From Planctomycetes bacterium RBG_16_43_13 (GTDB taxonomy: Bacteria; Planctomycetota; MHYJ01): DNA of 5,395 nt. A model generated the notes under the pieces. That model ran no database searches. It had not been told where the DNA came from and was given only the letters and a program-made list of their open reading frames with translations. This document shows, one piece after another, positions 2,185 through 5,330 of the stretch. Made by a program: the position numbers and the translations under genes. The first letter of the stretch is position 1; every line of letters starts with the position of its first letter. Location of the stretch: assembly GCA_001828445.1 (NCBI GenBank), contig MHYJ01000046.1, forward strand, positions 11,500 to 16,894, in the 5' to 3' direction.

Positions 2185-2205
2185 AACTATTTCTACAAAA
2201 TAGTT
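2185..2205. promoter_or_regulatory. Inverted repeat between divergent promoters (candidate operator)
   Basis: AACTATTT (2185-2192) and AAATAGTT (2198-2205) form a perfect 8-bp inverted repeat around CTACA. Its right arm overlaps the first two bases of the plus-strand -35 box (2204-2209), so a protein bound here could block that promoter. The same AACTAT/ATAGTT hexamer recurs in the first hairpin of the downstream RNA (2278-2283 and 2294-2299). No cognate regulator can be named. Confidence 0.4.
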
Positions 2206-2232
2206 GACATATTACTACTATTGGTATATTAT
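2204..2232 (+). promoter_or_regulatory. Strong sigma70-type promoter of the structured RNA / lipoprotein unit
   Basis: TTGACA (2204-2209, perfect) and TATTAT (2227-2232, five of six) are 17 nt apart. Transcription should begin near 2239, some 15 nt before the closing stem of the structured RNA. It faces away from the minus-strand promoter at 2137-2165. Confidence 0.75.
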
Positions 2233-2238
2233 CCCACT

Positions 2239-2425
2239 TTAGAAGTAAAAAAAAGGCAATCGGCAAAATATATTGACATAGTTGCCAAGATGTAACTATG
2301 TCCAGTGGTACATCCGCAGGCGTATGTGGTGAGGTCGTTATGACCTCGCCAAGAGGGTCATACGCCTGTAAACACATCTTTGCCGATTGTCTATAGGTAA
2401 AAATCCCTCTTCGGCGAGGTTTTTT
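2239..2425 (+). ncRNA. Unrecognised structured RNA / leader with three stems and an alternative terminator pairing
   Basis: The segment runs from a strong promoter to a T-run. Closing stem P1 is 2255-2267 with 2379-2391 (core CAATCGGCAAA/TTTGCCGATTG, 13 pairs with one G-U). Inside, P2 is GACATAGTT/AACTATGTC (2275-2283 with 2294-2302, 10-nt loop). P3 is CAGGCGTATG/CATACGCCTG (2317-2326 with 2359-2368), continued by P3b GGTGAGGTC/GACCTCGCC (2328-2336 with 2342-2350, 5-nt loop). Unpaired AAGAGGG (2351-2357) is complementary to CCCTCTT (2405-2411). With the adjoining P3b arm, 2343-2357 can pair over 15 bp with 2405-2420, leaving one bulged C. Such competing pairings are typical of riboswitches and attenuators, but no known family was recognised. 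It may act in cis on the lipoprotein gene at 2552 or as a free RNA of about 190 nt. The rest of the 2114-2551 gap is promoters and the lipoprotein ribosome site. Confidence 0.7.
2405..2425 (+). terminator. Terminator / switch 3' arm of the structured RNA
   Basis: CCTC-TTCGGC-GAGG (2406-2419) is followed by six Ts (2420-2425). The local 4-bp stem is weak, but the same bases can instead pair over 15 bp with 2343-2357, which would give a much stronger stem ending directly at the T-run. Either form could stop transcription before the lipoprotein gene. Confidence 0.5.
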
Positions 2426-2551: not shown

Positions 2552-3229
2552 ATGTTAGTAAGTATATACCGTAATTCAAGTGCCCTTTTTCTAATCGCAT
2601 TCGGTTTCTTGGTAGGTATGTTCTTCAGTATGAGTTGTGGTGGCGGAGGCGGTGGGGGTGGCGCTATAGCTCAATCGCCGACACCCGCTTCATCTATCAG
2701 CTTCGATACGACAGGCACTACACTTACTGGAACAAACGTTCAGACCGCTATAGCAGAACTTGATACTAATGTAACAGCTATACCGACAGCTAAGATTTAC
2801 ACTACCCCTATAAATACAACGCCTGTGGTCTTTACCGGTGGCACACAAGTAATACATCAGGTTACATATACACCGCCTACTGCTGACAATATGATAATGA
2901 AAATATTTGTAACATTTTCATATAGTGGTAGCAGTGGTAGTGTGTACCCACTTGTCGAAGTATATGATTTAAGTGGTAACAAGATAGTAATACTCAGCTC
3001 TCCTGGAGCGATTAGGGGTATAGGTACTGGTAGCGGGCAGTTTAGTATGCTAAGCGCTCCAGATAACTACCTTGAGGGAGGATTATTATTTTACCCTTCT
3101 AACAGTTACACCATAAAGTTTATAGCTTATGATTTGGGGGGCGGTGGATCGGCTACTATATCAGATGTTCAGTTTAAGTTTGAAGTAATAGAAAATGTAA
3201 AGACCGCTAACATAAATATGGATTTCTAA
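2552..3229 (+). CDS. Predicted lipoprotein with phage tail-fibre-like motif
   Basis: 225 aa. The N-terminus has a short basic part (R7), a hydrophobic stretch (about residues 11-25) and Cys29 in FFSMSC, followed by eight glycines (30-37). This looks like a lipoprotein signal peptide with a poor lipobox (Met at -2, Ser at -3), so the mature protein would be lipid-anchored and exported. Residues of about 45-75 (SSISFDTTGTTLTGTNVQTAIAELDTNV) resemble the 'stNVQ-AI-EL' motif common in phage tail fibres and collar proteins. The rest is rich in Gly, Ser, Thr and Val and probably all-beta, with ILSSPG, GLLFYPSNSYTIKF and SDVQFKFEVIENV. The start is supported by AGGAG at 2541-2545, six bases before ATG. 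It lies about 125 nt after the structured-RNA terminator, with no convincing promoter of its own. The precise function is unknown; adhesion or surface display is an inference. Confidence 0.85.
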   Translation: MLVSIYRNSSALFLIAFGFLVGMFFSMSCGGGGGGGGAIAQSPTPASSISFDTTGTTLTGTNVQTAIAELDTNVTAIPTAKIYTTPINTTPVVFTGGTQVIHQVTYTPPTADNMIMKIFVTFSYSGSSGSVYPLVEVYDLSGNKIVILSSPGAIRGIGTGSGQFSMLSAPDNYLEGGLLFYPSNSYTIKFIAYDLGGGGSATISDVQFKFEVIENVKTANINMDF

Positions 3230-3266
3230 AAAACAAAATTGGCTGTGAGTATTAGCTAAAAAAAGC

Positions 3267-3295
3267 TTGACATTTTAAAACGCATTTAGTATAAT
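3267..3295 (+). promoter_or_regulatory. Exact-consensus sigma70 promoter
   Basis: TTGACA (3267-3272) and TATAAT (3290-3295) are both perfect and separated by the optimal 17 nt. The start of transcription should be near 3302-3303, only about 70 nt after the lipoprotein stop codon. It drives the tandem-terminator leader of the sigma-like operon. Confidence 0.88.
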
Positions 3296-3301
3296 ATGCA
3301 C

Positions 3302-3394
3302 TAAGTAGGGAAGAGGTCTGCCTACAGGGTTACAGGAACAGTTAAAGCCCACGAAAACTCGTAAGGACTAAGTACGGGTTCTTGTGGGTTTTTT
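3302..3394 (+). ncRNA. Small structured RNA or attenuator leader (unit 2)
   Basis: The unit runs from the expected start site of the consensus promoter to a strong terminator, about 90 nt. GTAGG (3305-3309) pairs with CCTAC (3321-3325) across an 11-nt loop. GGGTT (3327-3331) can pair with AA(G)CCC (3345-3350), which is also the base of the terminator stem, so an antiterminator form is possible. No open reading frame with a ribosome site was seen. I do not recognise a known riboswitch class. It may be a free small RNA or the leader of the operon starting at 3652. Confidence 0.55.
3348..3394 (+). terminator. Intrinsic terminator of unit 2
   Basis: Arms 3348-3362 (CCCACGAAAACTCGT) and 3374-3388 (ACGGGTTCTTGTGGG) pair over 15 positions with one mismatch and two G-U pairs, around an 11-nt loop. 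Six Ts follow at 3389-3394, then A and seven more Ts to 3402. The upstream As extend the stem into the T-run. Confidence 0.85.
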
Positions 3395-3486
3395 ATTTTT
3401 TTATGAGCGAAGGGAGGTGAGGTAAAAAGTATATCTGATACAGGAAACAAAAGGCACAAGGTCTGTATAGACATTTAGTGCGGCAA

Positions 3487-3541
3487 GCCCGTTAAAGCCC
3501 AATCGTAGTATGGCAAATTTTGGGTTTCGACGGGCTTTTTT
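3487..3541 (+). terminator. Second intrinsic terminator in the same leader (unit 3)
   Basis: Arms 3487-3502 (GCCCGTTAAAGCCCAA) and 3520-3535 (TTGGGTTTCGACGGGC) pair over 16 positions with one mismatch and two G-U pairs, followed by six Ts (3536-3541). The stretch before it (3403-3486) has no recognisable promoter but can form GCAC/GTGC (3454-3457 with 3478-3481) around GTCT/AGAC (3461-3464 with 3469-3472). It also holds an SD-like AGGGAGGTGAGG (3411-3422) with no start codon at a suitable distance. GTTAAAGCCCA in its 5' arm is repeated exactly from unit 2, 150 nt earlier. Confidence 0.8.
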
Positions 3542-3564
3542 ATTTGTCCCCATTAGAAATAAAT

Positions 3565-3644
3565 TCCTAACGGGATAAACCCGCAAATCCAATTACGCCT
3601 TATCCCATAGGGATAAGGTCTTTGCCGTGATTTTTATTAGGAGA
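3565..3644 (+). promoter_or_regulatory. Leader fold able to hide the ribosome site of the 29-aa ORF
   Basis: TCCTAA (3565-3570) is complementary to TTAGGA (3637-3642), which contains the ribosome site (AGGAGA, 3639-3644) of the next ORF. Between them CCTTATCCC/GGGATAAGG (3598-3606 with 3610-3618, 3-nt loop) is a perfect hairpin. A second GGGATAA at 3572-3578 competes for the same TTATCCC (3600-3606). GCAAA (3583-3587) can also pair with TTTGC (3622-3626). This is consistent with control of translation initiation, but the fold is hand-drawn and untested. Confidence 0.45.
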
Positions 3645-3651
3645 TGGTGCT

Positions 3652-3741
3652 ATGAATAAATTTTTCGCAAATTCGTGTCGAGGGGGTGGTCTGGAAGTCC
3701 GACTTCGTGGTATTTACTTTTATAGGAGGGATAAATTATGA
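3652..3741 (+). CDS. Small leader ORF, 29 aa, overlapping the sigma-like gene
   Basis: The frame encodes MNKFFANSCRGGGLEVRLRGIYFYRRDKL. It has a ribosome site, AGGAGA at 3639-3644, seven nt before ATG. Its TGA (3739-3741) overlaps the ATG of the next gene (3738-3740) as ATGA, the classic arrangement for translational coupling. The ribosome site of the sigma-like gene (AGGAGGG, 3724-3730) lies inside this ORF, so translation here could open or control it. The peptide is basic (several Arg and Lys) with no known domain. It may be a regulatory leader peptide whose sequence matters little. It is too short to be found by most gene callers. Confidence 0.5.
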   Translation: MNKFFANSCRGGGLEVRLRGIYFYRRDKL

Positions 3742-4241
3742 ATCTTGTAAATAAGTATGATGGGCTAATAGAGGATTGGAAGGTTGAGCGGATGCGGACG
3801 CACTGCAAAAGGCGTGGGCTACAGCAGGCAGACCGCGACGAGGTTGAGCAGGATATCGTGCGGGAACTTATGAAGTTAAAGGGCAAATATCCAAACGTTT
3901 CTGGTGATGATGAGAAACGGTTGGTAGATGACGCTATATGTAAGTGTATAAGTAAATTCAAGCGGCGCGGTAAGAAACATCCTATGGAGAGTTTAGACCT
4001 CGCCATCCACGACCAAGCCATCAATACAGAGGACGCAGTGGATTTGCGGCTGGATTTGGAGATGGCTTTTGAGAAGATGCCCAAGCGACTGCGTGAGGTC
4101 TGGACGTTACTGCAATCGAGGTATAACTATGCTGAGGGTGCGAAGATACTGGGCATCAATAAGAAGACGTTTGTGAAGGACGTGAAGAAATTGAGGGTGG
4201 CGCTGGGCGGGATATATAGGGAGTATTTCGGGGAGGGGTAG
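3738..4241 (+). CDS. Sigma-70-like (ECF/phage-type) regulatory protein
   Basis: 167 aa, about the length of a two-domain ECF sigma factor. The N-terminal part (about residues 8-90) resembles a region-2-like helical domain: RRGLQQADRDEVEQDIVRELMKLKGKYP, then DDAICKCISKFKRRGKKHPMESLD. The C-terminal part (about 106-157) is a clear region-4 helix-turn-helix: LEMAFEKMPKRLREVWTLLQSRYNYAEGAKILGI followed by NKKTFVKDVKKLRVAL. The 'lp-rlrev--l' and 'y-eiA--Lgi----v' spacing is typical of sigma region 4, but Gly replaces Ala in E-G-A-K-I-L-G-I. ATG 3738 is supported by AGGAGGG with a 7-nt spacer and by the ATGA overlap with the 29-aa ORF. Small sigma-like proteins are common in phages and mobile elements as late-gene regulators; that role is inferred from the structural-looking gene downstream. 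Region 2 is weak, so it may be a DNA-binding activator rather than a true sigma factor. Confidence 0.75.
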   Translation: MNLVNKYDGLIEDWKVERMRTHCKRRGLQQADRDEVEQDIVRELMKLKGKYPNVSGDDEKRLVDDAICKCISKFKRRGKKHPMESLDLAIHDQAINTEDAVDLRLDLEMAFEKMPKRLREVWTLLQSRYNYAEGAKILGINKKTFVKDVKKLRVALGGIYREYFGEG

Positions 4242-4318
4242 AGCAGTGGTAACAATTCATTAGTTTTTCTCTTTTATTTTTGCATTTTTCTTTTCTATGA
4301 AAGGGGGTGAAACAATTT

Positions 4319-5128
4319 ATGGCATACGGCAAATGGGGTAATATACGAGGCAGGGTATTCCTGACGCAGGAGGTGGTCGCCTCCGATTGGAAGGGCTATC
4401 CGACCTATCGTAACCTGACGCGGACTATCTACCAGACGCAACGTGCGACGCAGGGCAACCGCAGGAGTTATCTCTCGTCCGCATCTAAAAAGTGGTCGAA
4501 TGAGATGACGGAACTGCAACGTGCGAAGTGGGACGCCTACGCAAAGATGCTCAAGAGTGCCTATAATAGGATGAAGGAGGACGTGGCTCGTGGTGCGGGC
4601 AATATAATCCGCCAGAGGAAGAAACTCGAGAGCGGGTTCAACTCGTTCGTCGAGAGCAACCTTGCGGCGATTGAGTTAGGGTGTCAGACGACACAGCAGT
4701 TCGCGCTGGAGGCACCGTTTCAGGACGGATTCCCACCTGCACCTACAGATGTGGGAGTGAGCCACCTGGCAGGGGTGGTATCTGTAACGTGGACACCGCC
4801 GGATCTGGCGCCTTTTGCGAGTTACTTCTGCAAGAAGTTCCGCATCTGGGCAACGATTCGGTCGCTGAAGAAAATCCACCCGCAGATAGTGGGGTTCGTG
4901 GATGTGGCGACAGCACCGCCTTTTACATTCAATAGTATAAGGGCGGGCGGGTATAGGACGGGGACGCCGATAGACATCGGCAGTTTCGCTATGCCGGGCG
5001 GTAGGAAGGTGGAGTTAGTCGTGCAGATGGATACGATAGTCAAGTTCGACGACCCGTCTGCGGGACCATCACACGGGGCTACATTGGGCGGAGACCCGTC
5101 AAATGTGGCGGTGATAGTGATACCGTAG
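4319..5128 (+). CDS. Phage/virion-like protein with basic N-terminus and FN3-like C-terminal region
   Basis: 269 aa from ATG 4319, preceded by AAGGGGGTGA (4301-4310) at 8 nt. The in-frame GTG at 4307 lies inside that ribosome site, so it is rejected. Residues 5-35 (KWGNIRGRVFLTQEVVASDWKGYPTYRNLTR) resemble the 'GxxrG-v------WKG--y-R' start of several phage or element-encoded structural proteins of unknown function. Residues 59-74 carry a W-x9-R-x2-W-x2-Y pattern (KWSNEMTELQRAKWDAYA). Residues 75-110 are basic and helical. From about 139 the sequence FPPAPTDVGVSHLAGVVSVTWTPPD looks like a fibronectin-III strand pair, and the C-terminus VELVVQMDTIV...NVAVIVIP is beta-rich. There is no signal peptide. 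The gene is visibly richer in G+C than the lipoprotein gene. A 77-nt pyrimidine-rich gap separates it from the sigma-like gene, so the two are probably one operon. Function unknown; a virion or particle component is an inference. Confidence 0.8.
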   Translation: MAYGKWGNIRGRVFLTQEVVASDWKGYPTYRNLTRTIYQTQRATQGNRRSYLSSASKKWSNEMTELQRAKWDAYAKMLKSAYNRMKEDVARGAGNIIRQRKKLESGFNSFVESNLAAIELGCQTTQQFALEAPFQDGFPPAPTDVGVSHLAGVVSVTWTPPDLAPFASYFCKKFRIWATIRSLKKIHPQIVGFVDVATAPPFTFNSIRAGGYRTGTPIDIGSFAMPGGRKVELVVQMDTIVKFDDPSAGPSHGATLGGDPSNVAVIVIP

Positions 5129-5189: not shown

Positions 5190-5330
5190 AAATCCGAAAT
5201 CCTAAACGCTAAATTCTAAACAAATTCGAATTACCAAAATCCGAATGTTCAAAATGGTTTTGGATTTGGAGTATTAGGATTTTGGGTTTGTTTAGGATTT
5301 AGTGCTTCGAATTTAGAGTTTGTTTTTCAG
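5190..5330. repeat. Long imperfect A/T-rich hairpin repeat
   Basis: CTAAATTCTAAACAAA (5209-5224) pairs with TTTGTTTAGGATTTAG (5287-5302), with one G-U. Weaker complementarity continues outward (AAATCC... with ...GAATTTAGAG) and inward to a centre near CAAAATGGTTTTG (5240-5252). Words such as AAATCC, CCTAAAC and AATTCGAA recur on both arms, suggesting an A/T-rich dispersed repeat of the kind common in uncultured-phylum genomes. It occupies most of the 233-bp gap 5129-5361. I see no gene, strong promoter or T-run terminator there. Confidence 0.7.

Follow-up and report, generated by a model that had tools for sequence, protein, structure and literature searches.

A strongly folded RNA with competing tail pairings upstream of a putative lipoprotein gene

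Positions 2239-2425 of the window (the whole 5,395-nt stretch of DNA that was analysed) have a fold that is real and well beyond chance, and the element looks like a genuine regulatory RNA, likely transcribed from the plus strand. What might such an RNA do? The best single reading, which we adopt tentatively and at something under even confidence, is a cis-acting leader or attenuator of the lipoprotein gene downstream, possibly working like a strand-exchange attenuator. At that same tentative strength we place it ahead of a close rival, a free-standing small RNA.

The folded element and its strand

An earlier reading of the sequence alone had described an unrecognised structured RNA between a strong promoter and a T-run, and that description is confirmed. 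The minimum free energy is -76.3 kcal/mol on the plus strand against a dinucleotide-shuffle mean of -42.4 (z -8.0), and none of 200 shuffles equals it. In a control with natural DNA, none of 1321 random 187-nt windows reached z -7 or lower (mean z -0.6, minimum -6.15), the windows being drawn from 95 records (89 viral loci, many of them chosen for sharing a short word with the window, and six from Paracoccus and other genomes); with the 25-shuffle protocol used for that control, the element has z -10.2. The promoter, with 11 of 12 consensus positions and a 17-bp spacer, ranks second best among the 14 sites found by a promoter scan of the window. From its position the RNA is expected to start near 2239.

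Table 1. Coordinates of the features discussed, numbered from the first letter of the window.
Feature	Position	Strand	Remarks
Sigma-70-like promoter, TTGACA-17-TATTAT	2204..2232	+	11/12 consensus matches
Structured RNA	2239..2425	+	about 187 nt; minimum free energy -76.3 kcal/mol, shuffle z -8.0
P1 closing helix	2254-2267/2379-2392	+	14 bp, one G.U; encloses three-way junction
P2 hairpin	2275-2285/2292-2302	+	11 bp, loop CAAGAT, one G.U
P3a	2316-2326/2359-2369	+	11 bp, one G.U; part of P3 hairpin 2316-2369
P3b	2327-2336/2342-2351	+	10 bp, one G.U; part of P3 hairpin 2316-2369
One-sided 7-nt bulge, AGAGGGT	2352..2358	+	between P3a and P3b; unpaired probability 0.99-1.0
Strand for alternative fold B	2343..2357	+	pairs with 2405-2420, 15 bp, bulged C2412
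Strand for alternative fold C	2378..2386	+	mostly P1 3' strand; pairs with 2411-2419, 9 bp including two G.U
Weak intrinsic-terminator-like hairpin and U6	2399..2425	+	-5.5 kcal/mol
Putative lipoprotein ORF, 225 aa	2552..3229	+	candidate regulated gene; phage tail-fibre-like motif

The helices P1, P2, P3a and P3b are defined from the minimum free energy fold. Four long helices had been proposed, with 13, 9, 10 and 9 bp; their number is right, and their lengths are superseded by the 14, 11, 11 and 10 bp of the minimum free energy fold, so that each helix is slightly longer than first noted. The junction also has a 2-bp stem (2307-2308/2314-2315), which we have left out of the helix count. A short plus-strand ORF of 32 codons (2298-2396), considered as a leader ORF for peptide-dependent attenuation, crosses P2, P3 and P1; by eye it has no Shine-Dalgarno-like sequence, and it is probably a chance occurrence.

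Which strand carries the RNA? Every helix contains exactly one non-Watson-Crick pair, and in all four this pair is G.U on the plus strand, hence A.C on the minus strand. Under a simple model in which a perfect pair suffers one mutation, the helix ends being themselves partly set by permitting G.U, the chance that all four odd pairs are G.U is 0.0008-0.03 (ts:tv weights 1-10), and the chance for the three that lie away from helix ends, all G.U as well, is 0.005-0.07 over the same weights. We regard the G.U pattern as modest evidence of strand. The minus strand folds well too, which is what inverted repeats would give: at full length it reaches -67.4 kcal/mol, z -7.8, and its version of P1 is followed by U8. 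In a 150-nt sliding scan (20 shuffles) the two common windows gave z -7.5 and -7.0 on the minus strand against -4.6 and -4.5 on the plus strand, and this more extreme minus strand counts against the leader reading.

The folding of the minus strand, in the full-length and the 150-nt comparisons alike, speaks for an improbable alternative, a feature of the DNA itself or a fossil with no RNA function: either a small mobile element whose ends are 14-bp inverted repeats, or inverted duplications that template switching during replication left behind. The P1 arms do make up a 14-nt inverted repeat, and 2343-2357 recurs, inverted and almost exactly, in the tail segment. Several observations weigh against such an origin, however. 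The full-length minus fold is weaker than the plus fold, the odd pairs are all G.U on the plus strand, and it is on that strand that a promoter-like site and a U-run flank the RNA; moreover, no target-site duplication was seen by eye beside the P1 ends, and the repeats listed for the window include no second copy. The G.U pattern and the promoter together favour an RNA of the plus strand. An approximate search of the window for TTTGCCGATTGTC returned 6 matches against 1.6 expected, two of them the P1 arms and the other four carrying 3 mismatches.

Competing pairings of the tail

Between the promoter and the gene lies a candidate intrinsic terminator, a hairpin of 4 bp (2406-2409/2416-2419) with A-U pairs on its flanks and T2420-2425 behind it. 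It is weak, at -5.5 kcal/mol for 2399-2425 and -9.2 kcal/mol for 2395-2430, and the terminator pattern scans of the window do not list it.

The sequence-only reading had pointed out that 2343-2357 is complementary to the terminator segment 2405-2420 over 15 bp with C2412 bulged, and this complementarity is exact and exceeds chance. The duplex has -26.9 kcal/mol, or -29.4 with its flanks; of 1000 versions with the upstream part shuffled, the best paired with the terminator at -23.1 (mean -14.2) and none attained -29.4. Counted as the longest Watson-Crick match to the tail with at most one bulge, the pairing scores 15; none of 300 shuffled tails exceeds 11, and 8 and 7 are the longest matches that the two adjacent terminator stems have to their own upstream stretches. 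Among eight body strands tried against the tail, the 2343-2357 strand stands out (z -6.6, 0 of 500). The same reading held that the pairing cannot coexist with P3b, and in this it was right as far as it went; it is not P3b alone that is lost, as the nested 15-bp helix disrupts P1 and P3a too.

A second and weaker competitor for the tail, absent from the earlier description, is the P1 3' strand. With it paired, the local fold of 2370-2425 has -12.2 kcal/mol against -5.5 for the hairpin, and shuffling the body strand gave 23 of 2000 versions as good as fold C, shuffling the tail 7 of 2000, about the 1% level; the P2 5' strand comes third among the eight (16 of 500). Because eight strands were looked at, the result for the P1 3' strand is weak evidence when taken alone.

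The bulge could offer a shorter contact. The overlapping 7-mer 2351-2357 has a predicted duplex of -9.5 to -9.7 kcal/mol with 2405-2411, and among 20000 shuffled tails 160 contain an exact complement of this 7-mer. Up to 2417, the tail by itself folds at just -0.9. To judge from the base complementarity, 2405-2411 could use the bulge as a toehold while the 3' arm of the hairpin is still within the polymerase.

Is this a switch? The layout of a ligand- or protein-sensing one had been proposed, and it is supported in part: body and terminator segment have the sequence capacity for mutually exclusive pairings, namely folds A, B and C. It is qualified by the energies of the whole RNA: the main fold A (-76.3 kcal/mol) leads nested fold B (P1 and P3a broken, -64.9) by 11.4 kcal/mol and fold C (P1 broken, -63.6) by 12.7, and the equilibrium pair probability of fold B is about 4e-9. 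In silico, fold B became the minimum once 2316-2336 was blocked, as did fold C once 2254-2267 was; fold B did not become the minimum when 2316-2326 or 2327-2336 was blocked singly. With the alternatives 11-13 kcal/mol above the main fold, a switch would have to rely on kinetics or on a partner.

A leader or a free-standing RNA

The ORF at 2552 lies on the same strand as the RNA, 126 nt beyond its end. A Shine-Dalgarno-like stretch, AAAGGAG, precedes its ATG, and by eye its product has a signal-peptide-like start with a cysteine; the lipoprotein of the earlier description, with its tail-fibre-like motif, is supported as a putative one. No site passed a plus-strand promoter scan of 2233-2552. 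A looser look gave TTGACA-18-TATGTC at 2273-2302, a site inside P2 that precedes the terminator; beyond 2426 the best spacing-adjusted promoter score is 7/12. The leader reading draws on the points assembled so far, among them that the fold and the 15-bp pairing exceed chance, that folds B and C come out on blocking in silico, that the terminator is weak, and that the gene on the same strand has no promoter of its own passing the scan.

How would a leader of this kind work? Transcription would begin near 2239, and the strongly folded 5' leader would set the amount of transcription passing into the lipoprotein gene. The tail, 2405-2420, could pair in three exclusive ways: weakly with itself, or with one of two partners in the body, namely the 3' strand of P1 or that of P3b together with the bulge. 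As long as P1 and P3 were folded, the weak hairpin alone could form and polymerase would frequently read through; the bulge may even capture the 5' arm of that hairpin. Were P1 or P3 open or unformed, the tail would take the freed strand, and the resulting stronger helix against the U-run would stop transcription. Whatever opens or holds the body could be a ligand, a protein, an RNA or temperature, and the sign of control could be reversed. Given the tail's options and the toehold bulge, the anatomy would suit a strand-exchange leader whose intact body favours read-through. In its fullest form this becomes a new class of leader on a phage-like surface-protein gene, a two-input RNA gate in which a hyperstable junction would withhold from a single tail the 3' strand of P1 and that of P3b, the latter with its toehold bulge, and opening of either arm would bring about termination by strand exchange. 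We consider this full version unlikely.

One would think that a helix that has to open should be weaker than a 14-bp P1, and the strength of P1 counts against a leader, as does its timing, since P1 is already complete before the tail is made. The lead of the main fold and the minute equilibrium share of fold B tell in the same direction. Further, the 126-nt gap and the U-run fit a free small RNA too. Such an RNA, a structured molecule of about 187 nt with its own promoter, ends tied by P1 and an intrinsic terminator, is a possible reading and the second in our order of preference. The lipoprotein would then be expressed from elsewhere or through leaky read-through, and the complementarity of the tail would be incidental or structural, as in a pseudoknot. 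Agreeing with it are the very stable body with paired ends, the promoter-like site and U6 at the termini, and a 15-bp alternative scarcely populated at equilibrium; the terminator-bounded stretches at 3267-3395 (12/12 promoter) and 3420-3545 suggest, in addition, a region rich in small RNAs. It is at odds with the weakness of the terminator and with a gene at 2552 that has no promoter passing the scan. Nor does any target stand out: pairing of 2239-2425 with four neighbouring stretches (the second and third structured stretches, the leader of the lipoprotein gene and the beginning of the sigma-like gene) was not above shuffles, z -1.4 to +1.0.

Surroundings, relatives and known systems

Is the region phage-like? 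Eight viral loci match parts of lipoprotein residues 29-159 at 34-51% identity, with E-values that are relative to the candidates only. In viral locus L088 the match lies within a 757-aa ORF bearing NVQTAIAELD, which on its sequence we take for a putative phage tail fibre. A search of 5.8 billion protein sequences with the 225-aa lipoprotein returned the window's own protein only, and NCBIfam gave two matches, both below cut-offs; its structure model has a mean pLDDT of 56.9 and six PDB matches at E<=0.001, to mixed beta-rich folds. The ORF at 3738-4241 has a weak match to a phage sigma-factor family (5.5e-06), its Pfam and NCBIfam sigma-factor matches being below cut-off. Annotated phage records contain no match (E<=0.1) for the 225-aa protein of 2552-3229, the 167-aa sigma-like protein or the 273-aa protein. 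With a tail-fibre-like motif and a weak sigma match, and none of these proteins in phage records, the phage-like nature of the region is a lead only.

HK022 put and the EAR element are RNA-borne antiterminators, and on their model the leader might be a phage-type antiterminator that makes RNA polymerase ignore this terminator and the later ones of the phage-like region. The site directly behind the promoter, the tail-fibre-like and sigma-like neighbours and two further terminator-like stems downstream would be in keeping with such a role. No Rfam family matched, however, which counts only in so far as put or EAR is modelled there, and the lack of phage-record matches for the lipoprotein, sigma-like and 273-aa proteins also tells against it. 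We regard an antiterminator as quite improbable, the least probable of the readings that we have weighed.

The same stretch of DNA has other features. At 3267-3395 (plus strand) a perfect sigma-70 promoter (12/12, 17-bp spacer) is followed by about 94 nt with a strong terminator stem, a second promoter-leader-terminator unit; its fold has z -2.7, with 3 of 200 shuffles as good, and an Rfam scan of it gave no match above the gathering score. A third structured region, likewise with a strong terminator stem (3420-3545, plus strand; z -3.1, 1 of 200 shuffles), is followed by a stem-loop at 3570-3625, both upstream of the sigma-like ORF at 3738, and 3481-3630 has z -5.0 on the plus and -6.5 on the minus strand (20 shuffles). 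The plus-strand ORF 4307-5128, of 273 aa, has two relatives besides itself among the 5.8 billion sequences, at 84% and 36% identity, and none in viral contigs (by sequence or three-row alignment). The protein of 1685-2113 has in that search one near-identical sequence of 104 aa. Between genes, 5190-5321 holds an imperfect inverted repeat with 48-nt arms, 71% complementary, built of TTAGGATTT-like repeats. A repeated intergenic element occurs at 625-719 and 1531-1624 (88% identical over a 33-nt part and 93% over a 40-nt part) and carries a TCCCGAYAAATCGGGATCCCG palindrome and GATGCTCTTTG, which we take to resemble boxA. A tRNA-Gln lies at 1408-1481, and from about 1640 the GC content falls from about 0.44 to 0.33-0.38 and the genes are near-orphan; this is a possible border of an integrated element. 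There is no integrase among the scanned ORFs of the window. The model of the 269-aa protein P0001 has a mean pLDDT of 51.9, and a scan with defence models gave a single match, E 0.027, for the 142-aa protein.

Does the RNA have relatives? The sequence-only reading had recognised no known aptamer and suggested an Rfam search and a collection of homologues by BLASTN and covariance model. Rfam agrees with it: the whole window (E<=5) gave 11 matches, with the tRNA alone above its gathering score, and 2230-2440 (E<=10) gave three, all of 12-13.8 bits where the gathering scores are 45-58. The collection of homologues came back empty, with no relative in the phage, plasmid, viral or Paracoccus-phylum sets. 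A blastn search of 2190-2560 against phages gave 13 records, none matching over more than 12% of the query, all at E 0.1-0.4 and read as chance; 12 of them fall at query positions 195-260, the terminator stretch. The same region had no match in plasmid records. Four DNA patterns occurred in 3, 53, 15 and 10 stretches of viral contigs, none a homologue of the 2239-2425 RNA; for the last three patterns, 77 placements were compared without gaps, and identity beyond the seed peaked at 36%. A one-sequence covariance model gave no match in 81 viral loci, in 8 tail-fibre loci or, with stricter filters, in 398 genomes of the Paracoccus phylum; these nulls were run without a positive control, and an empty answer so obtained shows nothing. 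A scan of genome contigs for the P1 pattern produced a lone Paracoccus match, which we set aside as chance, since it reads as coding DNA and the interior of its stem folds differently. A retron was rejected, the RT family being absent among the Pfam matches of six ORFs and the PHROGs matches of four in this window, and an attC site was considered and set aside by eye. Among neighbouring sequences, neither DNA 3230-3740 nor the 142-aa protein (E<=1) has a match in phage records, and the 167-aa protein has no relative in viral contigs.

None of the matches listed for the ThiE of the window in 60 Paracoccus-phylum genomes, 58 of which gave a match, exceeds 38% identity, and from this the host probably lies outside the phylum of Paracoccus. 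The collections searched for relatives of the RNA probably lacked the host's own phylum. Moreover, as three neighbouring proteins are near-orphan in 5.8 billion sequences, an RNA with no relatives found says little on conservation.

How does the element compare with known systems? The pbuE adenine riboswitch is a strand-exchange transcriptional riboswitch. The ZTP riboswitch is another, according to PMC10907184, and as in these systems a body and a terminator stand ahead of one gene, and the segment beside the U-run can invade a helix of the body, P1 or P3, with a stronger stem as the outcome. In contrast to them, 2239-2425 contains no Rfam aptamer, its P1 has 14 bp, its alternatives are 11-13 kcal/mol less stable, and it is known from sequence alone. 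For the guanidine-IV riboswitch and the formate-tetrahydrofolate ligase leader motif, PMC10907184 and PMC11109978 describe a preceding element that may pair with the terminator stem-loop; likewise the bulge 2352-2358 could pair with 2405-2411 and block the terminator, although the RNA is a different one and this pairing is a possibility read from its letters. The dauA motif, as given in PMC11109978, is a three-stem-junction riboswitch candidate with no known ligand and 57 unique representatives, and it encloses the Shine-Dalgarno sequence. Like it, the present element is an orphan with a three-stem junction and lies ahead of a single gene; unlike it, the element is a single sequence and ends 126 nt before the gene.

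A z of about -8 justifies a search of metagenomes, where relatives may lie. Should the element prove to be only a stable small RNA, it would be one among many. If the element is real, a scarcely sampled bacterial or phage-like lineage would gain an orphan structured RNA that is likely a leader, and with it a compact and testable case in which two arms of a junction contend for one tail segment.
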